A DNA stretch of 64,000 nucleotides, from positions 2,728,001 to 2,792,000 of the forward strand of contig NZ_JAVDVK010000001.1 of the NCBI RefSeq assembly GCF_031456835.1, in the 5' to 3' direction. Position 1 is the first letter of the stretch, and each line of letters starts with the position of its first letter. A program made the position numbers and the translations under genes. Source of the stretch: Leifsonia shinshuensis. GTDB taxonomy: Bacteria; Actinomycetota; Actinomycetes; Actinomycetales; Microbacteriaceae. Shown here in pieces: positions 4,765-32,636 of the stretch. Under the pieces are notes generated by a model, which was not told the origin of the DNA, did not search any database, and saw only the letters and a program-made list of their open reading frames with translations.

Positions 4765-4806
4765 CCGCGCCGCTGTAGACGCATGGATGACGAGAAAGGC
4801 CTGATC

Positions 4807-5763
4807 ATGGCTGAAAACGAAGCACTGGACATCGTCGTGCTCGCCGGCGGGATCTCGCATGAGCGCGACATCTCGCTCCGCAGCGGCCGACGCGTCGCGG
4901 ATGGCCTGAACGGCCTGGGGCACCGCGTCACCCTCCGTGACCCGGATGCTTCACTGCTGGCCTTCCTGAACGAGTCGAGGCCCGCTGTGGTCTGGCCGGC
5001 GCTGCATGGAGCGAGCGGTGAGGACGGCGCGCTGCGTGGTCTCCTCGAACTCACCGGTGTGCCGTTCGTCGGCTCCCGCGCCGACGCCTCCCGTCTAGCC
5101 TGGTCCAAGCCGACCGCGAAGACCGTCGTGGAGCGGGCCGGCGTGGCGACCCCGCGCTCGGTGACGCTGCCGCAGGAGACGTTCCGCGAGCTCGGCGCCG
5201 GGAGCGTGCTGGAGACGGTCCTCGCGGGATTCGACCTGCCGCTCGTGGTGAAGCCGGCCCAGGGAGGTTCGGCGCAGGGCGTCACGATCGTGGCGACCGC
5301 CGAGGAGCTTCCGCGCGCGATGGTGGATGCGTACACCTACTCCGATGTGGCGCTCATCGAGCAGAAGGTGGAGGGTGTGGAGGTGTCCGTCGCCGTCATC
5401 GACGTCGGCGAGGGCCCCGAAGCGCTTCCCGCGGTGGAGATCGAGCCGGTCGACGGCGCCTACACGTTCGATGCGCGGTACAACGCGGGGGAGACCCGCT
5501 TCTATGTCCCCGCGCGGCTGGATTCCGCGGTCGGCGCAGCAGTTGCCGAGGCGGCCACGACCGCCCACACCGCGCTGGGCCTGCGCCATCTGTCGCGTAT
5601 CGACCTGATCGTGGATGCCGCCGGGACCCCGTGGTTCCTCGAGGCGAACGTGCTCCCCGGTCTCACCGAGACGTCGATCATGCCGCAGGCGATCGCCGCC
5701 GCGGGGCGCGAGACCGGCGAGGTCTACGCCGCGCTGGCGTCAGCTGCTATCGCTGACGCCTGA
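4807..5763 (+). CDS. D-alanine--D-alanine ligase-like ATP-grasp protein
   Basis: About 318 aa with the Ddl layout: the N-terminal pre-ATP-grasp domain opens with VLAGGISHERDISLRSG and continues with HGASGEDGALRG. The ATP-grasp core follows (VVKPAQGGSAQGV, the acidic EVSVAVID and EIEP strands, and LEANVLPGLTETSIMPQ as the metal-binding and product loop). Ddl joins two D-alanines for peptidoglycan precursors. This is a short, divergent member; a main ddl elsewhere is likely, so the substrate is not certain. I chose ATG 4807 because GAAAGG (4794-4799) sits 7 nt before it; an in-frame ATG at 4783 would add 8 residues. The gene ends 7 nt from the convergent parB stop. Confidence 0.75.
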   Translation: MAENEALDIVVLAGGISHERDISLRSGRRVADGLNGLGHRVTLRDPDASLLAFLNESRPAVVWPALHGASGEDGALRGLLELTGVPFVGSRADASRLAWSKPTAKTVVERAGVATPRSVTLPQETFRELGAGSVLETVLAGFDLPLVVKPAQGGSAQGVTIVATAEELPRAMVDAYTYSDVALIEQKVEGVEVSVAVIDVGEGPEALPAVEIEPVDGAYTFDARYNAGETRFYVPARLDSAVGAAVAEAATTAHTALGLRHLSRIDLIVDAAGTPWFLEANVLPGLTETSIMPQAIAAAGRETGEVYAALASAAIADA

Positions 5764-5770
5764 CACCTGG

Positions 5771-6736
5771 TCAGGTGAAGCTCGGCTGACCCAGCTCGTC
5801 GAGGATCCTGTTGAGGTCCTGGATCGTCGCGAAATCCACCACGATCTGGCCTTTTCGTGCTCCCAGGGTGATCTTGACCCGCGTGTTCAGGCGGTCGCCC
5901 AGGGTACCGGCGATCTCGTCCAGGTGGCCGCGGTGACGTCCCGCGGTGGCCTTGGTCCTGGCAGGCTTCGGCGTCTTGCTGGCGGCCGCCTCCGCCTGGC
6001 GGACGGACAGATCCTCGTTGACGATCTTGTCGGCGAGCCGGAGCATCGCCTCGTGGTCGTCCCCGAGCGACAGGATGGCACGCGCGTGGCCCGCGCTGAG
6101 CACGCCGGCCGCCACCCGGGTCTGCACCGCTGCCGGCAGCTTCAGGAGGCGGATCGTGTTGGTGATCTGCGGCCGTGAGCGGCCGATCTTCGCGGCCAGC
6201 TCCTCCTGCGTGATACCGAAGTCGGCGAGGAGCTGCTGGTAGGCCGAAGCCTCCTCGAGCGGGTTCAGCTGGCTCCGGTGGAGGTTCTCGAGGAGCGCAT
6301 CCCGGAGCATGTCCTCGTCGGCGGTGTCCTTGACGACCGCCGGGATCGTCTCCAGGCCGAGTTCCTTCGTCGCGCGGAGTCGACGCTCGCCCATGATGAG
6401 CTCGTAGCGTCCCGGCTCGTCGGGGAGCGGTCGCACCACGACCGGCTGTAGCACGCCCACTTCGCGGATGCTGGCGACGAGCTCGTCGAGCGCCTCCCGG
6501 TCGAACTCGGTTCGCGGCTGCACGCGGTTGGGCACGATGTCGTCGGGGGAGATGCTGGCGAGTCGTGCGCCCGGGACGGCCACCAGGTCGTCGGGACGCT
6601 CGGCCACAGCTACCGCCGAGCCACCGAGCCCGGCGGTGTTGTCGGGGAAGAAGACGTCCACCGGCCGACTGCTCTGGTCGCTGGTGGGGATGAGGGCGCC
6701 GATGCCTCGGCCCAGTCCGGTGCGCTTCGCTGCCAT
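5771..6736 (-). CDS. parB: chromosome-partitioning protein ParB
   Basis: A 321-aa ParB/Spo0J protein that binds parS, loads as a CTP-dependent sliding clamp and organises the origin for segregation by ParA. Visible: the basic N-terminus MAAKRTGLGRGIGALIP, the CTP-binding region with the signature GERRLRA (box II), the parS-reading helix-turn-helix around IGRSRPQITNTIRLLKLP, and a C-terminal dimerisation domain. The ATG overlaps the parA stop by 1 nt (TAATG), so the two proteins are translationally coupled. Its probable targets, eight copies of GTTTCACGTGAAAC, lie immediately upstream of the operon. An in-frame extension further 5' was ignored because it runs through parA. Confidence 0.95.
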   Translation of the reverse strand: MAAKRTGLGRGIGALIPTSDQSSRPVDVFFPDNTAGLGGSAVAVAERPDDLVAVPGARLASISPDDIVPNRVQPRTEFDREALDELVASIREVGVLQPVVVRPLPDEPGRYELIMGERRLRATKELGLETIPAVVKDTADEDMLRDALLENLHRSQLNPLEEASAYQQLLADFGITQEELAAKIGRSRPQITNTIRLLKLPAAVQTRVAAGVLSAGHARAILSLGDDHEAMLRLADKIVNEDLSVRQAEAAASKTPKPARTKATAGRHRGHLDEIAGTLGDRLNTRVKITLGARKGQIVVDFATIQDLNRILDELGQPSFT

Positions 6737-7623
6737 TAGCGGGGTACTCCTCTGCGTGCGATCTCCGCGGCCGCTTCCATGTAGGAGAGCGATCCACTGG
6801 AGTTGGTGTCGTAGCTGATGACGCTCTGTCCGTAGCTCGGTGCTTCGGAGATGCGGACGGAACGGGGGATGATCGTGTCGAGCACCTCGTTGGGGAAGTG
6901 CTCGCGGACGTCCGCCGCAACCTGGTGGGCCAGGTTGGTGCGGGAGTCGTACATCGTGAGCAGGATCGTCGACACGCGGAGCTTGGGATTGAGGTGCCGC
7001 TCGATGAGCTGGATGTTCTTGAGCAGCTGGCTCAGCCCCTCGAGCGCGTAGTACTCGCACTGGATGGGGATGAGCACTTCCGTGGCTGCGACGAAGGCGT
7101 TGATCGTCAGCAGGCCCAGCGACGGCGGGCAGTCGATCAGGACGTAGTCGATGTCGTACTCGTCGAGGAACCGGTCGAGAGCGCGGGACAGCCGCTGCTC
7201 ACGGGCGACCATCGAAACGAGTTCGATCTCCGCGCCGGCGAGGTCGATCGTGGCGGGGATGACGAACAGCCCGTCGAATTCGGGGCTCTTCTGGATGACG
7301 TCCTCGAGCTCCCTGTCGTTCACGACGACGTCGTAGACACTGGGCGTGCCTTCCCGATGCTCGACACTGAGCGCCGTGGATGCGTTGCCCTGCGGATCCA
7401 GGTCGATGACGAGCACCCGCGCGCCCGACTTCGCGAGTGCGGCACTCAGGTTGACCACGGTCGTGGTCTTGCCGACCCCGCCCTTCTGGTTGGAGATCGT
7501 GAAGATGCGCGTCTTAGAGGGAAGGGGGAGGGTCGTTGCCGCGATCGCCTGGCGTCGGCGGGCCAGATTCGCGATCTCCTGGGCGAGCGGGGTGGTCCCG
7601 TCGAAGGTCGCGTCCTCAGTCAT
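6736..7623 (-). CDS. parA: chromosome-partitioning ATPase ParA
   Basis: About 295 aa of the Walker-type ParA/Soj/MinD family. The deviant Walker A is ISNQKGGVGKTTTVVNLS, with the signature lysine in KGGVGKTT; DLDPQGNAST and LIDCPPSLGLLT (Walker B) follow. ParA binds DNA without sequence specificity when ATP-bound and moves ParB-parS complexes. I chose the ATG at 7623 with GGAG upstream. An ATG 9 nt earlier is possible, and the frame stays open farther upstream through a parS, which is not coding. A parS at 7679-7694 sits 56 bp before the start, so autoregulation by ParB is plausible. Confidence 0.94.
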   Translation of the reverse strand: MTEDATFDGTTPLAQEIANLARRRQAIAATTLPLPSKTRIFTISNQKGGVGKTTTVVNLSAALAKSGARVLVIDLDPQGNASTALSVEHREGTPSVYDVVVNDRELEDVIQKSPEFDGLFVIPATIDLAGAEIELVSMVAREQRLSRALDRFLDEYDIDYVLIDCPPSLGLLTINAFVAATEVLIPIQCEYYALEGLSQLLKNIQLIERHLNPKLRVSTILLTMYDSRTNLAHQVAADVREHFPNEVLDTIIPRSVRISEAPSYGQSVISYDTNSSGSLSYMEAAAEIARRGVPR

Positions 7624-7678
7624 CGGCTCCATCTCGCTGTCGATCTCACCTACTCTGCCGCGGTCATCGTGGTGGGGT

Positions 7679-7694
7679 TGTTTCACGTGAAACC
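7679..7694. promoter_or_regulatory. parS site upstream of parA
   Basis: TGTTTCACGTGAAACC: one mismatch to the broadly conserved bacterial parS consensus TGTTTCACGTGAAACA. It lies in the parA leader or promoter region. Confidence 0.9.
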
Positions 7695-7980
7695 TCGTCG
7701 CTCTGTGGTGCTTCGCACCGGCTCTTGGTCGGTCGTTCGGCACACCCTCAGCGCACCCGTCGATCAACTCTAACTCGGATGCGAGACGCTTCCCGACGCG
7801 CCGCGCGCTGTGGCGACGCGGCTGATTGTGACTTTCTGGTGGAGTCTCCTACGAATGATCGGAGCCCGTCCTAGCCGGTATTTTTCCGGCGGCGCTGGTC
7901 TGAAGGATCGGCGCCCGGCGGCGGGGGAGTGGCTCGGGGTCGTGGCGTACTTATCCCGCGAGGCCCTCACCATTCCACCG

Positions 7981-7996
7981 TGTTTCACGTGAAACG
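7981..7996. promoter_or_regulatory. parS site
   Basis: TGTTTCACGTGAAACG: exact 14-bp core palindrome and one mismatch to the 16-bp consensus. It opens the array of evenly spaced sites. Confidence 0.9.
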
Positions 7997-8061
7997 CAGG
8001 GGTCGCCGGCGACCCCTAAGCGGAATTCCGGTGCGGGCGGCGGGGACGGGATCCCTGCACA

Positions 8062-8077
8062 CAGGGTGCCCACCCTG
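8062..8077. repeat. second dyad inside the parS module
   Basis: CAGGGTG (8062-8068) and CACCCTG (8071-8077) form a 7-bp inverted repeat with a 2-nt centre. Its core GGGTGCCCACCC is preserved in the next module (8184-8195), although the surrounding bases differ. Confidence 0.6.
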
Positions 8078-8098
8078 CGAGGCGTACAGAAGAAAGCG

Positions 8099-8114
8099 CG
8101 TTTCACGTGAAACG
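8099..8114. promoter_or_regulatory. parS site
   Basis: CGTTTCACGTGAAACG: exact core, perfect 16-bp palindrome. It lies 118 bp after the previous site. Confidence 0.9.
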
Positions 8115-8218
8115 GAGGGGCATCCCGCGGCGCCATAAAGCAGCTTCGGTGCAGGCGGCGGGAGAAGGGCTGCACTGCTTATGGGGTGCCCACCCAGCGA
8201 GGCGTGCGCACTAGAGCG

Positions 8219-8234
8219 CGTTTCACGTGAAACG
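8219..8234. promoter_or_regulatory. parS site
   Basis: CGTTTCACGTGAAACG: exact core, perfect 16-bp palindrome. It lies 120 bp after the previous site and ends the second module. Confidence 0.9.
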
Positions 8235-8332
8235 TCAGGGCCTTCGGGCGTTCCATGATGGAGCTCCCTGCAAGCGGGGTCGATCCAGTCCCGGCCCTAT
8301 GTTCTGCACGCCAAGGACTGCTGCCTTAGGTG

Positions 8333-8348
8333 TGTTTCACGTGAAACG
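8333..8348. promoter_or_regulatory. parS site
   Basis: TGTTTCACGTGAAACG: exact core. It lies 114 bp after the previous site and ends the diverged third module. Confidence 0.9.
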
Positions 8349-8842
8349 AAAGGATCTCAAGCGGCTTCGATGGAGGGCGCGCCGCAACTGTGACCCTGGG
8401 CGCACAGCAGCTCGCTGTATCCCGCTAAGCGAGCGCACGGAAGTTTCGCCTAACCCTCTTCAGGCCTTCGCTCCGGCATCTGCGAAGCGAAGGTCCCGCT
8501 GGCCCGCTGTGCGCTGGCGCCCGACGTGGCTATCGTCGACAGACACTGCTGAGAGCGACGCGACCCACAGCGGCAAAGCCTGATCTTTCCGGCGGCGCCT
8601 CAGGTCGTCTGCGGCACGGACGTCGGGAGAGGCACAAGCACCGACGGGGCGCAGCAGTCGCGGGCTGAATGATGCTGCCGCAGCAACCTAGGAAAGGAGA
8701 GGCAAGTAGGGACGCATACTCTCCGTGGTCCGCGTGCCTGCACAACACGCGCGACGATGCCGCGGTGGGCTCTCACAAGGGCGATCGGGCTCGCTCACAG
8801 TCGTACCGACCGATTGGGCGCCTGCGCGAACCTTCTAGCGCT

Positions 8843-8858
8843 AGTTTCACGTGAAACG
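8843..8858. promoter_or_regulatory. parS site
   Basis: AGTTTCACGTGAAACG: exact 14-bp core, isolated from the array by about 500 bp. Confidence 0.88.
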
Positions 8859-9009
8859 AAGCTCTCCGTGCTGACGTTCTTGGCGGATGATCGGACAGCG
8901 CGCGCCGGCACCCGCGTCGCATAGCTGGCCTCGACAGCAACCTGGCGAAACTGAACGCCTGTCGTGGCCGTGGGCCCGGAGGGGAGCCCGCCGTGGAATC
9001 CGGAGGGTA

Positions 9010-9025
9010 CGTTTCACGTGAAACC
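9010..9025. promoter_or_regulatory. parS site
   Basis: CGTTTCACGTGAAACC: exact 14-bp core, 167 bp from the previous site. Confidence 0.88.
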
Positions 9026-9507
9026 GGGGCCGCGCCGGACAAGCGCGGTTGACGTGAACGCGGGGATAGTATCTCCTGCGCGTCGTGGCAGCCCGGTGGA
9101 GCGGAATTGCGCACTGCGATCGCTAGCTGAAGACACTTGAGCCGCGCACCTAGCCAACGTGCCGCCGCCAGCATGCCGAGTTTCGCGGCGCAACAATCGG
9201 CATGCTCGCCGACCGCCTTGTACCTAGTCCGCAACCTCAGAGGCAGCGACCCCTTGGCTTGTTGCTGGCCTGCTCGCTAGTCAGCCAACGACCTCCGGCA
9301 CAGGCCTCCGACCCGATCTGGTGTGCGGTCGAGTCGAACTCGATGGCTGATCACGATCATGGGACCATCGCGACGCGCCCCGCTCAGAGTCGTCGCATGC
9401 GTCTCGATCCGGCACGGCGCATAGCGGAATCCGGGCGCCGACAGTTGCGTTCGTAGCTAGCTTGCCCGACCCCGGCGGTACCCCAGGGCCCGCCGGGGGA
9501 GTGCGCA

Positions 9508-9523
9508 GTTTTCACGTGAAGCT
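9508..9523. promoter_or_regulatory. degenerate parS-like site
   Basis: GTTTTCACGTGAAGCT keeps the central TTCACGTGAA palindrome but loses the outer bases. It could be a weak ParB site or a decayed copy. Confidence 0.5.
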
Positions 9524-9923
9524 TCCGCCCTTACCCTGCTTCGTCCTATCCGGCAGAAACTCCCGCCGCAGATTCCGGCGTCGATGACTGCAGGGCAACA
9601 TCAAGCCCCGCTGCAAACCCACGCGGTCTTTCCGTCGATGCACGCGGCGCACCCAGATGGTCGCACCCCAACATGCCTCGTCCAGAGCTCCGAGCGGAAG
9701 GCAAGAAGATCACCCGTGTCATCCGCATCAAGCCGGATAGTCGCCATCCACCCCCCGCCCGACACTTCCTTTAGCAGCCACGAGAACCCGAATAGCCGCT
9801 CACGGGTCCCAAATTCGGGTCTCCGGCGAGCCGCAAGATGCCCGGAGAATCCCGCTCAGCGAACGGAAGCGCATGCTTCGGCGCGCCCAGAGGCATCCTA
9901 AGCGGCGCAGAGACGCGTCGCGA

Positions 9924-10550
9924 TCAGCGAACAGTCGCCCGAATGACCCTCGTGGTCTCCGACAACAGGCCTTCGCCGAGCTCCAGAACCTCGATATCGT
10001 GCACCGCGTATTTGCGGATCTCCTTGCCGGCGGCTTCCACCTCGGCCGGAGCACCCGCACCCTTCATAAGGACGAGTTCGCCACCGTCCCGAAGCAGGGG
10101 AGCGGTCAGCGGGAGGAGCTTACGGAACGCACTCACCGCGCGAGCCGTGACCTGGTCGAGCGGCTCGGACAGCCGCACATCCTCGGCGCGGTCTCGGACG
10201 ACCCGCACATTCGTCAGACCCAGCTCGACGACCTGTTCATTCAGCCAGGCGATGCGCCGCTCCATCGGCTCGATGAGAACGAACGACACATCGGGACGCG
10301 CGATCGCCAGCACCAGACCGGGCAGGCCGGCGCCGCTACCGATATCACCGACGACGCCCGGACGCAGATGCGGCGCGACGATCGCGCAGTTCAGGATGTG
10401 GCGTGACCACAGCCGCGGAAGCTCCAGTGGTCCGATCAGTCCTCGCTCTTCGCCCTGCTCCGCGAGGTTGCGAGTGAAGCGACGAGCAAGATCGATCCGA
10501 TCGCCGAACAGAACGGCAGCGGCGGGCGGCTCGAGTTCGAGATCAGTCAC
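9924..10550 (-). CDS. rsmG: 16S rRNA (guanine-527-N7)-methyltransferase RsmG
   Basis: A 208-aa Rossmann-fold methyltransferase of the GidB family, with the SAM-binding glycine motif VGDIGSGAGLPGLVLA, the following LIEPMERR acidic loop, and the conserved LWSRHILNC segment before the core. It methylates G527 of 16S rRNA; loss in other bacteria gives low-level streptomycin resistance. The GTG start directly abuts a perfect parS (10551-10566), so no Shine-Dalgarno sequence is visible. Translation may depend on khpB read-through or a leaderless message. The order khpB-rsmG-parA-parB is the standard one; here parA is displaced by the parS field. Confidence 0.94.
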   Translation of the reverse strand: MTDLELEPPAAAVLFGDRIDLARRFTRNLAEQGEERGLIGPLELPRLWSRHILNCAIVAPHLRPGVVGDIGSGAGLPGLVLAIARPDVSFVLIEPMERRIAWLNEQVVELGLTNVRVVRDRAEDVRLSEPLDQVTARAVSAFRKLLPLTAPLLRDGGELVLMKGAGAPAEVEAAGKEIRKYAVHDIEVLELGEGLLSETTRVIRATVR

Positions 10551-10566
10551 AGTTTCACGTGAAACT
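10551..10566. promoter_or_regulatory. parS site in the khpB-rsmG junction
   Basis: AGTTTCACGTGAAACT is a perfect 16-bp palindrome. It overlaps the khpB stop codon (10565-10567) by 2 bp and touches the rsmG GTG (10548-10550), so it replaces the normal ribosome binding site. Confidence 0.92.
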
Positions 10567-13444: not shown

Positions 13445-14878
13445 ATGGCAGGCGGCGAAGAGTCCATAGCTGCGGCGTGGCAGAACGTGCTCGGCAAGCT
13501 CGAGACCGACGACCGGATCACCCCGCAGCTGTATGGATTCCTGAGCCTGGTCGAGCCGAAGGGCATCATGGCCGGCACCTTCTATCTGGAGGTGCCGAAC
13601 GAGTTCACCCGCGGGATGATCGAGCAGCGGAGCCGGCTGCCCCTGTTGAACGCGATCGGCGGTCTCGACGACGACCTCGCGGTGAACACGTTCGCGATCG
13701 TGGTGAACCCGGAGATCCAGCAGGAGACCATGGCCGGCACGGGCGCCGAGCCGGAGGTCGCTCCGGCCTATGTCGAGCAGATCGCCCCGCCGATGGTCAG
13801 CCAGCCCACCGAGATCACCGCACCGCCGCGCGGCGGCGACACCCGCCTCAACGCCAAGTACAGCTTCGACAACTTCGTCATCGGCCAGTCCAACCGCTTC
13901 GCCCATGCGGCGGCGGTCGCGGTGGCCGAGGCTCCGGCCAAGGCCTACAACCCGCTGTTCATCTACGGCGACTCGGGACTCGGCAAGACCCACCTCCTGC
14001 ACGCCATCGGGCACTATGCGATGAGCCTGTATCCCGGCATCCGCGTCCGGTACGTGTCCTCCGAGGAGTTCACGAACGACTTCATCAACTCGATCGCCAA
14101 CAACCGGGGCTCGTCGTTCCAGGCGCGCTACCGCAACATCGACATCCTCCTCATCGACGACATCCAGTTCCTGCAGCGAGCGGTCGAGACGCAGGAGGCG
14201 TTCTTCCACACCTTCAACACGCTGCACGACCACAACAAGCAGGTGGTCATCACCTCCGACCTGCCGCCGAAGCATCTCACCGGCTTCGAGGACAGGATGC
14301 GGTCGCGGTTCGAGTGGGGACTCATCACCGACGTCCAGGTGCCCGACCTCGAGACGCGCATCGCCATCCTGCGCAAGAAGGCGCAGAGCGAGAAGATCCA
14401 GGTTCCGGACGACATCCTCGAGTTCATGGCGACCAAGGTGTCCAGCAACATCCGCGAGCTCGAGGGGACGCTCATCCGCGTCACGGCGTTCGCCAGCCTC
14501 AACCGCACGCCGGTCGACATGCCGCTGGTGCAGACGGTGCTCAAGGACCTGATCACGCTCGACGACGACAACGTGATCGCGCCGACCGACATCATCACCA
14601 ACACCGCCGAGTACTTCAAGCTCTCGGTCGACGACCTCTACGGGTCGAGCCGCTCGCAGGCGGTGGCGACGGCCCGGCAAATCGCCATGTACCTGTGCCG
14701 TGAGCTCACCAACCTCTCCCTCCCCAAGATCGGCCAGCTCTTCGGCGGCCGCGACCACACCACCGTGATGTACGCGAACAAGAAGATCAGCGAGCTCATG
14801 AAGGAGCGCCGCTCGATCTACAACCAGGTAACCGAGCTCACCAGCCGGATCAAGCAGAACCACCGCTACGGCAAGTAG
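13445..14878 (+). CDS. dnaA: chromosomal replication initiator DnaA
   Basis: A 477-aa initiator with the four usual domains: an N-terminal protein-interaction domain (about 1-85), a variable linker, an AAA+ ATPase (Walker A GDSGLGKTH near residues 175-183, Walker B LLIDDIQFL, sensor region TSDLPPKHL), and a C-terminal DNA-binding domain with the signature GGRDHTTVMYANKKI. It binds DnaA boxes and melts oriC. The acidic-proline linker is shorter than in Streptomyces. The ATG is 8 nt after an AGACGGGG stretch with a weak ribosome binding site. Consensus boxes flank the gene, most of them downstream. Confidence 0.97.
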   Translation: MAGGEESIAAAWQNVLGKLETDDRITPQLYGFLSLVEPKGIMAGTFYLEVPNEFTRGMIEQRSRLPLLNAIGGLDDDLAVNTFAIVVNPEIQQETMAGTGAEPEVAPAYVEQIAPPMVSQPTEITAPPRGGDTRLNAKYSFDNFVIGQSNRFAHAAAVAVAEAPAKAYNPLFIYGDSGLGKTHLLHAIGHYAMSLYPGIRVRYVSSEEFTNDFINSIANNRGSSFQARYRNIDILLIDDIQFLQRAVETQEAFFHTFNTLHDHNKQVVITSDLPPKHLTGFEDRMRSRFEWGLITDVQVPDLETRIAILRKKAQSEKIQVPDDILEFMATKVSSNIRELEGTLIRVTAFASLNRTPVDMPLVQTVLKDLITLDDDNVIAPTDIITNTAEYFKLSVDDLYGSSRSQAVATARQIAMYLCRELTNLSLPKIGQLFGGRDHTTVMYANKKISELMKERRSIYNQVTELTSRIKQNHRYGK

Positions 14879-15293
14879 GCCGTCGGGCCCCCCTGTAGCG
14901 CACCGGTTATCCACATCTCCATCCCCAGAGTGGGGACAGTGCGTTATTAACACGTGTGGATAACTTGTGGAAAGGTTCCGGAGAACTCGACGATTAATGG
15001 GGACGAGAGACCGTGGCCTGTGAAAAGCCCTCCTCGGCGTCGACGGGCCCACGACCTTGTGAACAACAGGAATCCTCAGGCCATCAACAAGTCACCGACG
15101 TGTAGTTTCCAGTCCTCGTCTGGCTTCAACAGAGTTATCCACAGTTTCCACAGCGGTTAACACGATTACTTCTTAACTCTTCTCATAGGGGCGGACGACA
15201 ACCTCAAGGGCCGACGGGCGCCGCTTCCGCGTCACAGGCCAGGCGCTAGGATTTGTCACGTCCGTTATCCGTCAAGCCGTCAGAGGTGACTTC
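14879..15293. other. oriC, origin of replication
   Basis: The 415-bp dnaA-dnaN spacer carries consensus DnaA boxes TTATCCACA at 14907-14915 and 15135-15143 (both forward) and TGTGGATAA at 14955-14963 (reverse). Weaker matches include TTGTGG at 14965-14970. AT-richer segments GTTATTAACAC (14943-14953) and GGTTAACACGATTACTTCTTAACTC-type sequence (about 15154-15180) could serve as the unwinding element. The dnaA-dnaN gap is the established actinobacterial oriC position. Confidence 0.88.
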
Positions 15294-18543: not shown

Positions 18544-19024
18544 GCGGGTCAGCGAAGCATCCGCCGTCTACCTCCGGCTGAAGTCGCTCTTCACCGGGAC
18601 GCCGGCGCGCCGTAAGCGCGCTGCGCGCGACGAGCAGAGCCCCGGGACGAGCACGCCGTTCGGTTCCGGCCGCGACCCTCACGGCGTCGGGGACGTGGTG
18701 GATGCGCTGGCCGCGCAGCTGGGCTGGACCTCGGCTCTCGCCCAGTCCGACCTCCTCGAGAGGTGGCGCGAACTGGCCGGTGAGGAGACGGCGAAGCACG
18801 CCGTCCCGGACCAGATCGTGGACGGCGTGCTGGTCGTCCGCTGCGAGTCCACGGCGTGGGCGACGCAGCTGCGGATGATGCGCTCCGAACTCCTCGCGCA
18901 CATCGCGGAACGGTTCCCCGAGGCGGGCATCGCGTCGATCCGTTTTCAGGGGCCGGACGCCCCCTCCTGGAAAAGAGGCCCCAGGTCCATTCCAGGGCGC
19001 GGTCCGCGCGATACTTACGGCTGA
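18536..19024 (+). CDS. DUF721 (DciA-like) protein
   Basis: 162 aa. After a variable basic N-terminus, the conserved region runs from about residue 40 (DVVDALAAQLGWTSALAQSDLLERWRELAGEETAKHAVPDQIVDGVLVVRCESTAWATQLR) as a compact KH-like DUF721 fold. DUF721 proteins include DciA, the helicase-associated replication factor used in bacteria without DnaC/DnaI; actinobacterial members sit between recF and gyrB as here. A role with the DnaB helicase is therefore known for the family and inferred for this gene. The GTG overlaps the recF stop. Confidence 0.85.
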   Translation: MSERVSEASAVYLRLKSLFTGTPARRKRAARDEQSPGTSTPFGSGRDPHGVGDVVDALAAQLGWTSALAQSDLLERWRELAGEETAKHAVPDQIVDGVLVVRCESTAWATQLRMMRSELLAHIAERFPEAGIASIRFQGPDAPSWKRGPRSIPGRGPRDTYG

Positions 19025-30635: not shown

Positions 30636-31270
30636 CTCGCGTACTCGTCATCGACAACTACGACAGCTTCGTCTACACGCTGAACGGCTACCTGCGCGAA
30701 CTCGGCGCCGAGACCGATGTCGTGCGCAACGACGATGTCAGCGCCGACCAGCTGGCGGGGAAGCTCGCCGAGTACGACGCCGTCCTGCTCTCTCCGGGCC
30801 CGGGAAAACCGGCCGACGCGGGCGTGTCCGTCCCCGTCGTCGAGCAGGTGCTGACCACCGGCCAGCCGCTGCTCGGCGTGTGCCTCGGCCACCAGGCGAT
30901 CGCCGAGGCGTTCGGCGGGGTGGTCACCAACGCCGAAGAGCTGATGCACGGCAAGACCTCGAAGGTCACCCACGACGACACGATCCTCTTCGACGGCGTT
31001 CCGCAGCCCTTCACGGCCACGCGCTACCACTCGCTGGCTGTCGTCGACGGCACTCTGCCCGAGGAGCTGCAGATCACCGCACGCACCGAGGGCGGCGTGA
31101 TCATGGCGCTTCAGCACCGGGATGCACCGATCTACGGGGTGCAGTTCCACCCGGAGTCGGTGCTCACCGAGGGCGGCTACCGGATGCTGGGCAACTGGCT
31201 GGAGGCGTCCGGACTGGCGGGCGCAGCCGAGGCGGCCCGCTCGCTCAACCCGTTGGTCAAGCTGGGCTGA
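30632..31270 (+). CDS. pabA: glutamine amidotransferase, anthranilate/aminodeoxychorismate synthase component II
   Basis: A 212-aa class I glutamine amidotransferase: it opens VLVIDNYDSFVYTLNGYL, has the nucleophile Cys in LLGVCLGHQAIAEAFGG, and His/Glu of the triad in YGVQFHPESVLTEGG. It supplies ammonia to chorismate-using partner PabB or TrpE for folate or tryptophan. Location beside pknB matches the mycobacterial gene called trpG/pabA; pabA is the more likely role because trp genes are absent here. The GTG start overlaps the stop of the small upstream gene, so translation is coupled. Confidence 0.9.
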   Translation: MTRVLVIDNYDSFVYTLNGYLRELGAETDVVRNDDVSADQLAGKLAEYDAVLLSPGPGKPADAGVSVPVVEQVLTTGQPLLGVCLGHQAIAEAFGGVVTNAEELMHGKTSKVTHDDTILFDGVPQPFTATRYHSLAVVDGTLPEELQITARTEGGVIMALQHRDAPIYGVQFHPESVLTEGGYRMLGNWLEASGLAGAAEAARSLNPLVKLG

Positions 31271-31329
31271 CGGCGCCGCAAGTCCCCACCAGCCATCGCC
31301 GGAGGGAAAGCTTTCTCGGTGCTCGTTCT

Positions 31330-31354
31330 CGCGCCTTCCGTCACCGAAGGCGCG
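31330..31354 (+). terminator. stem-loop after pabA
   Basis: CGCGCCTTC (31330-31338) and GAAGGCGCG (31346-31354) form a perfect 9-bp stem with a 7-nt loop. The following ACGATT is only weakly T-rich, so termination is possible but not sure. Confidence 0.45.
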
Positions 31355-31424
31355 ACGATTACTTGACATATCCTCATTTGTTGGAGGACAGTTCATAGCT
31401 GACACCATCGGACGGAGTCAGACC

Positions 31425-32636
31425 GTGAAGAAGCTGTTCGCTCTACCACTCACTGTTCTCGCGACGGCCGCCTTGATCTTCGCCGCGACCGGACCGGCGG
31501 CAGCTGGTGCCCGCTACTCGGTCACGACAATCAGCCTGGCGAACACGCATTCACGTCCGCAAGCGATTGCGGCGGACCCCCTCACCGGTACGTTGTACGT
31601 TGGCCAACAGGACGGCGCGGCCGGCGCAATGATTGCAGTACTCGGTCCGTCGGGTGGCTTACGCACATACATTCGCGTGGGCGAGAGCTTTGATGCTGCC
31701 TCGAACGTTCCTCCAGATGGAGAGCGACCTGCGCCGCATGCGCCGTCACGAGTGATCGCGCTGACGGTCAACTCTCTCACCCGGACGGTGATCGCGTTGG
31801 TCACTGATACCTGGATCAACACGAACCCCACATACTCAGGGCTCTCAGGATCGTACGTCGTAACTGTCAACATGCGGACGAACACCGTCTCACATCGCTA
31901 CACCGTCGCGGCACCAGCATCGGAGCCCGAGGCCGCTGCAGAGGGGTGGCACGACATCAGCACTATGTGGACGGGCTTTGCCCTCGATCCGGTCAGGAAC
32001 GTGCTTTGGGGGATCGAGGGGTATGACCCAAGGTCGAGCAACGCAATAGATCGGCTCGATCTGACCACAGGCGTTCATGGGCGAGCCGCCCTGCCGGTTG
32101 TGGCGAATGACTCGCCCATCGACGCGGTACCCACGATCGCGTTCAATATTGCCAACGGGCACGCGTACGTAAGTGTGGCGGGCGTCATCTTCGTTGTCGA
32201 CGGATCCCTGAGGATCATCAACAGGCTGCAAGTTCCGGGCCTCCCGGGATGTGATGTGTTGCCAGGTAGCGGCCAGACCGCGATCGTTGCCTCACCGTGG
32301 ACGAGCACGCTGTATATGACGTGGTGCGGCGGTATCTATGTGATCAATGGAGCGACGAACGTCGTCACGCGTCCCTTCCCGACGATCCCACTCGGCAAGG
32401 CCGGACTGGCTTACGACCCCCTGGGGCGATCGTTGTACGTGTATGAGACTCGCAATGGTGTGAAGGGTCTAGGCATATACAGCACCGTGACTGCGACGTC
32501 GCGCGGCTTCGTGCCTCTGGCCCTGAGCGATGAGGTTCCGACGGCGGGAAACGCGTGGATAGCGAACAGCCCGTTACTCAAGACGACATACGTGACAAGC
32601 TCGGCGTCCACGATTAGTGCGATCGCCACTCGCTGA
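31425..32636 (+). CDS. secreted beta-propeller protein, YncE/NHL-like
   Basis: 403 aa. A clear signal peptide (KKLFALPLTVLATAALIFAATGPAAAGA) is followed by repeating segments of the type AIAADPLTGTLYVGQQDG, GFALDPVRNVLWGIEGY, TIAFNIANGHAYVSVAGVIFVVDG and GLAYDPLGRSLYVYETRNG, which resemble YncE/surface-layer beta-propeller blades. No sortase signal or membrane anchor follows, so it is probably released or loosely attached. The GTG has GGAG 7 nt upstream. Base composition is visibly less GC-rich, with more A/T at third positions than its neighbours, and it interrupts the usual pabA-pknB adjacency, which suggests acquisition by transfer. Ligand and function are unknown. Confidence 0.75.
   Translation: MKKLFALPLTVLATAALIFAATGPAAAGARYSVTTISLANTHSRPQAIAADPLTGTLYVGQQDGAAGAMIAVLGPSGGLRTYIRVGESFDAASNVPPDGERPAPHAPSRVIALTVNSLTRTVIALVTDTWINTNPTYSGLSGSYVVTVNMRTNTVSHRYTVAAPASEPEAAAEGWHDISTMWTGFALDPVRNVLWGIEGYDPRSSNAIDRLDLTTGVHGRAALPVVANDSPIDAVPTIAFNIANGHAYVSVAGVIFVVDGSLRIINRLQVPGLPGCDVLPGSGQTAIVASPWTSTLYMTWCGGIYVINGATNVVTRPFPTIPLGKAGLAYDPLGRSLYVYETRNGVKGLGIYSTVTATSRGFVPLALSDEVPTAGNAWIANSPLLKTTYVTSSASTISAIATR

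Follow-up and report, generated by a model that had tools for sequence, protein, structure and literature searches.

A parS cluster beside parAB on the Leifsonia shinshuensis chromosome, partly copied in tandem and set in fast-changing spacer DNA

How does a bacterial chromosome come to carry many copies of its segregation site within a few kilobases, and what is kept when the DNA around them changes? A locus of Leifsonia shinshuensis raises this question, since sites of the parS type, at which the partition protein ParB is expected to load, crowd the spacer between the genes parA and rsmG. We analysed a window, that is, a stretch of 64,000 nucleotides (contig NZ_JAVDVK010000001.1, positions 2,728,001 to 2,792,000), of the chromosome, which is one contig of 3,788,128 bases (3.79 Mb). 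The parS core was taken as the 14-bp palindrome GTTTCACGTGAAAC. In the whole 3.79-Mb genome this core occurs eight times without mismatch, and all eight copies lie within window positions 7680-10565 (2.9 kb). Elsewhere in the genome there is no exact copy and only two matches with two mismatches; the reversed-pattern control gave 4. With up to three mismatches allowed, the window contains 9 matches, compared with 1.17 ± 1.11 in 100 shuffles, none of which reached 9. The first-pass annotation of this DNA had listed eight exact palindromes and one degenerate copy in 2.9 kb, which is correct apart from a range that was one base too wide at each end; the genome-wide count it had proposed located every exact copy at the par locus and none elsewhere.

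Our answer is that the locus is probably the chromosome's own parS cluster, with predicted ParB-loading sites, a module that was copied in tandem, and cores likely kept by selection while the surrounding DNA was replaced. We read it as a ParB-loading cluster because the sites are far above chance, are confined to one place of the genome and are accompanied by the domains of ParB. Selection on the cores is proposed because they outlast their flanks in most of the arrays and in one pair of species compared below. Unrelated parS modules recur in other species, and sites keep a minimum distance from one another. Judged by its predicted parts, a palindromic core near parAB and the origin together with chromosomal-type ParA and ParB, the locus is a chromosomal ParABS cluster.

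The first-pass annotation saw here a plasmid-style centromere, and an origin from a plasmid was considered. The centromere sopC of the F plasmid consists of regular short repeated sites next to parAB, and tandem sites beside parAB recall it; on this view the array would have arrived with an integrated plasmid or another mobile element. Unlike sopC, the locus studied here has chromosomal ParA and ParB, irregular spacing and mostly unrelated flanks, and is no regular array of near-identical repeats. Its ParA reached only 49 bits with the SopA equivalog (cut-off 725) and 117 with RepA (cut-off 348), which is far below what a plasmid-type protein requires; plasmid ParA carries an extra N-terminal DNA-binding domain (PMC7022226; here and below, statements on cited papers refer to the portions of their text that were covered). 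Moreover, parA, parB, rsmG and the ddl gene stand in the same order on the chromosomes of relatives, and the site motif is that of related chromosomes. A Pfam search with the five open reading frames of the spacer gave no match, and thus no mobile-element gene, and no array of three exact sites was found in viral contigs (plasmid records were not scanned). We consider a plasmid origin highly improbable.

The seven exact sites of the spacer follow one another at distances of 302, 118, 120, 114, 510 and 167 bp. In order to find out which of the intervals are copies of each other, modules were aligned with the parS cores left out, and significance was taken from 500 shuffles. Segments 7998-8099 and 8116-8219 are alike in 78 of 107 columns, a value equalled by none of the shuffles, and Tandem Repeats Finder reported a period of 120 with 2.2 copies and 77%. 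The weak copy farther upstream agrees with 8123-8203 in 53 of 82 columns (0/500 shuffles as good) and shows no likeness to the first module (184/500). For the 114-bp interval (8234-8333) the evidence is at best borderline, as 44/500 and 29/500 shuffles were as good against the two modules. These alignments establish two copies of the module and hint at a third, and a four-module array was rejected. The earlier proposal that spacings of 118, 120 and 114 bp stem from a repeated module can therefore be retained for the first two and not for the third. A further repeat, which is devoid of parS, pairs 7736-7929 with 8445-8631 (125 of 204 columns, 0/500 shuffles as good); this similarity shows that the spacer contains other, putatively old, duplications. 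Repeats in the window cover about 250 of the 1924 mid-spacer bases.

Some remnants accompany the intact sites. Copies with three mismatches exceed expectation (7 versus 2.1 ± 1.6), in keeping with some site decay, and the two-mismatch copy at 9509 is perhaps a decaying site. Half-sites outside full sites are not enriched (8 versus 6.8 ± 3.0 expected).

Comparable arrays were detected in other species by masked-core self-comparison and module alignment (Table 1). The clearest of them is that of Cryobacterium sp. Y11 (L108), where four successive module copies do not differ in the 60 bp that precede the core; parS was recently amplified here, on the opposite side of parAB. As the genome is a draft, its copy number may be collapsed. 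For the array of G315, module similarity is partial, and the 3.3-kb piece on which it lies has no match to parA, parB or rsmG. In masked-core blastn, the arrays of the genus match one another at the spacer edges only, and an independent origin is therefore likely. L054 and L067 have fairly even spacing and were rejected as arrays because their module similarity is not significant.

Table 1. Coordinates of genes, parS sites and modules in the window, and parS arrays in other species.
Locus	Feature	Position	Strand	Remarks
Window	ddl, D-Ala-D-Ala ligase-like gene	4783-5763	+	convergent with parB; ddl-parB gap is the alternative parS place in relatives
Window	parB	5771-6736	-	ParB_N, HTH_ParB, ParB_C domains; TIGR00180 passed
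Window	parA	6736-7623	-	AAA_31 ParA by Pfam; start codon is the analysts' choice
Window	parA-rsmG spacer	7624-9923	no strand	2.3 kb, without recognisable gene; 7 exact parS and 1 degenerate copy
Window	exact parS, anchor	7680-7693		57 bp from parA start
Window	weak upstream module copy	7885-7964	+	resembles 8123-8203 only
Window	exact parS	7982-7995		
Window	tandem module, first clear copy	7996-8099	+	
Window	exact parS	8100-8113		118 bp after preceding site
Window	tandem module, second clear copy	8114-8219	+	
Window	exact parS	8220-8233		120 bp after preceding site
Window	exact parS	8334-8347		114 bp after preceding site; interval not significant as module copy
Window	exact parS	8844-8857		
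Window	exact parS	9011-9024		
Window	two-mismatch parS copy	9509-9522		
Window	rsmG	9924-10550	-	
Window	exact parS	10552-10565		jag-rsmG junction; one base common with jag stop codon
L049	seven sites, two with two mismatches			150-163 bp steps
L065 Leifsonia virtsii	four sites in 106-bp steps			one with a mismatch
L065 Leifsonia virtsii	six parS-like sites, two exact	1347-1512 from parA start		30-31 bp apart
L066	two sites at 107 bp			
L055	two sites at 137 bp			one with a mismatch
L107 Agromyces sp. Soil535	module copies			258 bp apart and farther away
L108 Cryobacterium sp. Y11	eight sites, spaced at exactly 130 bp	3.2 to 2.3 kb beyond parA start		downstream of parB
G315 (loci L071, L075)	five sites, neighbours 119-122 bp apart			genome from a different genus of the family; additional sites at 141-144 bp

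The arrays allow cores to be compared with the DNA that surrounds them. Of five tandem arrays, four lack any flank window of 14 columns that equals the core in conservation (0/141, 0/79, 0/95 and 0/80). A similar picture emerged for the mid-spacers of L059 and L061, for which global alignment gave 2253 aligned columns with 53% identity: the sole perfect 14-column windows (4/2412) overlap one parS site, at 2187, and four of the six L059 sites have exact matches in L061.

A wider comparison was based on 92 distinct loci of the Microbacteriaceae, among them 27 usable loci from 28 genomes of the genus (in G022 the locus is split between two contigs). All 28 genus genomes carry parS, with 3 to 11 sites at no more than one mismatch, and every one of these sites falls at the par locus; over the family, the number per locus ranges from 2 to 13. 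Comparing the parA-rsmG spacer among relatives, as the first-pass annotation had advised, showed that module number and length vary. The gap measures 1.0-4.4 kb in 18 of the 27 genus loci and 185-209 bp in the other 9. When the 18 long-spacer loci were compared by masked-core blastn, many pairs aligned over the first ~200 and the last 140-250 bases, and the middle was mostly unalignable. Longer matches in the middle were limited to L059/L061, to L041/L052 (678 columns, toward the rsmG end) and, once, to L059/L066 (241 columns, 62%). Identity at four-fold degenerate codon sites is 69% for L059/L061 and for L041/L052, 64% for L055/L065, and 44-51% between the window and the three nearest relatives compared. 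With such values, much of the loss of alignment fits neutral divergence; L055 and L065, however, match at the spacer edges only despite their 64%, which suggests rearrangement besides divergence. Close relatives thus differ fast in the middle of the spacer while the binding motif is kept. The first-pass annotation had regarded an unrelated spacer lacking repeated parS modules in close relatives as refuting its proposal, and by this measure the outcome is mixed: mid-spacers of close relatives are unrelated to that of the window, yet they are again studded with parS, and in some species they contain repeated parS modules of another kind.

Where long spacers approach the rsmG stop, their final ~150 bp form a conserved block, which also matches in reverse orientation between species. 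It is likely a hairpin, perhaps the rsmG terminator. On one contig of Agromyces sp. Marseille-P2726 (NZ_CADDWM010000009.1), two ParB matches of near-equal score were found (L151 and L154), which may reflect an assembly duplication.

Two placements are much more constant than the rest. A site just upstream of parA is present in 90 of the 92 family loci and in all 27 genus loci, and one at the rsmG start in 65/92 and 24/27, respectively. Such sites hug gene starts, as would be expected if they chiefly let ParB control the transcription of parAB and rsmG. An operator role of this kind covers the two anchors only: mid-spacer sites lie at least 0.3 kb from the parA start, and in 52/92 loci sites stand downstream of parB. 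In addition, no promoter consensus was found in the spacer, which is of little weight in actinobacteria. As the chief function of the cluster, we regard transcriptional control as improbable.

The placement downstream of parB deserves attention of its own. Among the 92 loci, 45 combine a short parA-rsmG gap with sites downstream of parB, 38 have a long gap (>700 bp) without such sites, 7 have both, and 2 have neither. Gap length and site number are correlated on each side (rho 0.85 and 0.80, n=88), and loci with many sites on one side tend to have few on the other (rho -0.79). Mapped onto the tree, the two states require a minimum of seven and eight changes. If only the five supported tree contrasts are counted, on average 3.1 are opposed, 0.2 alike and 1.7 without difference (median p 0.25). 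The data are suggestive of extra sites being placed on the parA-rsmG side or on the ddl-parB side, rarely on both.

How closely the sites may be packed was deduced from 298 neighbour spacings, which are not fully independent because related species share sites. None is shorter than 26 bp, whereas 12.7 ± 3.3 were expected, and none of 2000 simulations was as low. Directly above this limit, at 26-45 bp, 21 spacings were seen versus 19.9 expected under random placement. Four pairs (in L101, L106, L125 and L141) are separated by exactly 26 bp, a distance that may reflect the footprint of one ParB dimer as it loads. The 30-31-bp site steps of L065 are near this minimum. Helical phasing of sites was not observed (137 spacings below 200 bp, Rayleigh p 0.13 to 0.99).

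Several findings weigh against the proposed selection on cores and against a large share of tandem copying, and they have to be set against the above. In the young L108 array, 30 of 103 flank windows equalled the core in conservation. Among the six L059 sites, one carries one change with respect to L061 and one (1187) is unaligned; judged by the offset of the latter from a local match nearby, its counterpart would be L061 site 906. Within long-spacer loci, length and site number are only weakly related (rho 0.26, p 0.09). In six genomes, three exact sites follow one another at intervals of 100-130 bp, and only the window and G315 show module similarity; in G217, G047, G337 and G780 the spacing is even and the sites share no module similarity, so that duplication cannot be deduced from regular intervals alone. 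The same triple pattern was found in 5/398 genomes of the family and in 2/394 of the class, both belonging to the family (21 of the 394), hence in 0/373 outside it; it takes exact cores and misses arrays such as L049 and L065. The 14-mer core itself occurs in 90/118 class genomes. Finally, only 18 of 177 mid-spacer sites in the 45 long-spacer loci of the family fall in detectable repeats. A rotation null gave 14.1 ± 3.3, with 18 or more in 335 of 2000 cases, and tandem duplication is thus not shown to be the main source of sites. Repeats are also no majority of this DNA, as they cover 7.6% of its 113 kb. Old duplicates may have lost their traces. The earlier picture of an array growing by tandem duplication beside parAB consequently holds in so far as part of the array is tandem-made and number and length vary among relatives, and is not established for the bulk of the sites.

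Some of these counts would fit a neutral by-product, i.e. gene-free DNA near the origin that gains duplications anyway, with parS copies beyond the first one or two being without effect. Repeats without parS are as common: of the 45 long spacers, 17 contain repeats and only 6 have a repeat that includes a parS site. Nor do sites fall into repeats more often than expected. A single parS site gives wild-type-like growth in Corynebacterium glutamicum (PMC7083940), and extra sites may matter little. What speaks against neutrality is that cores are conserved more strongly than flanks (four of the five arrays, and L059/L061), that mid-spacer sites are retained in 45/92 loci, and that sites respect the 26-bp exclusion, which suggests that each site is used. 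In addition, condensation in vitro rose with parS number, being seen with 7, 13 and 26 sites and not with 1, 2 or 4 (PMC8299390). We judge the neutral explanation to be rather unlikely.

For the preferred reading, a chromosomal cluster with selected cores, the following course of events may be envisaged. According to known ParABS biology, ParB dimers would load at each core as CTP-dependent clamps and slide into the flanks; ParB spread over the flanks would build one partition complex, which ParA moves and from which SMC is loaded. Each site seems to need its own stretch of ~26 bp. The two anchors, one ahead of parA and one where rsmG begins, would be kept, and the spacer between them would grow, shrink and rearrange. 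Tandem duplication would occasionally add sites, and selection would retain those cores that are of use. Elsewhere in the family, the ddl-parB gap beyond parB would be the place of these events.

A more far-reaching version is put forward tentatively. It describes a satellite-like centromere whose DNA turns over except for the 14-bp cores, in which tandem amplification has occurred repeatedly and independently, the ParB dimer sets a hard 26-bp exclusion, and the cluster has switched the sides of parAB several times. Also on the plainer reading above, the change of this bacterial centromere would seem to resemble that of the repeat-rich centromeres of animals and plants. In satellite centromeres, as far as the covered literature describes them, segregation DNA likewise changes fast, partly via tandem duplication; in contrast, the locus studied here is far smaller, has a fixed 14-bp motif, and its repeats make up only the small share of long spacers given above.

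With respect to known chromosomal systems, the first-pass annotation had assumed parS sites to be scattered or within genes as a rule, which the covered parts of PMC8357415 and PMC7083940 contradict: most bacteria cluster parS within 5-40 kb (PMC8357415), and C. glutamicum has ten parS sites near oriC, nine of them intergenic (PMC7083940). This actinobacterium is similar in that respect, whereas its sites extend over 35 kb, 73 kb from oriC, and are not in one spacer beside parA (PMC7083940). Myxococcus xanthus resembles L. shinshuensis in having many chromosomal parS packed near parA, where 22 sites occupy 3 kb at a distance of ~4 kb upstream of the gene (PMC3899335, PMC3778016); it differs in the core consensus, TGTTCCACGTGGAACG, and in having more sites, which lie farther from parA. 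The covered texts of both papers are silent on tandem modules and on the evolution of the cluster. PMC6650430 describes two parS sites upstream of a parAB operon and uses the wording "tandem array", with no duplication in the text covered. No literature on chromosomal parS duplication or on parS of Microbacteriaceae was found among titles and abstract openings of open-licence papers, which speaks only weakly for novelty. Dense parS clusters as such are ordinary; the manner in which this one changes is the new part. With 2 to 13 sites per locus in two alternative places, the Microbacteriaceae represent a natural experiment, in which a fresh tandem amplification in one species stands beside decayed ones in others. 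The sharp minimum spacing can be set against the loading footprint of ParB. Moreover, the sequence traces of local parS multiplication complement PMC7333895, where such multiplication is deduced from the places in which inserted parS sites are tolerated.

Regarding the setting of the cluster, the minus-strand gene order is yidC, a jag-like gene, rsmG, the spacer, parA and parB, followed by the convergent ddl-like gene on the plus strand. The parS sites are about 4-8 kb away from three DnaA boxes (14907-15143), which are located ahead of dnaN; the dnaA frame occupies 13445-14878. That the array lies in a gene-free stretch between parA and rsmG, as had been annotated, was confirmed, with the correction that this stretch of 2.3 kb holds seven exact sites and not six, and that the eighth is in the jag-rsmG junction. 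The spacer looks non-coding: the codon-phase GC range has a mean of 0.059 (7 windows of 300 bp), compared with 0.389 for 204 windows elsewhere. An Rfam search gave no match inside 7624-9923, and the sole terminator-like match in the spacer is the parS palindrome itself (8099-8114). With a flat GC phase and empty Pfam, Rfam and promoter searches, no sign of a concealed gene, RNA or promoter was found there. Other 300-bp windows that are free of a codon-phase GC signal are found at 31201-31800 and also at 18901, 32401 and 50401; these may be further non-coding stretches or RNA genes.

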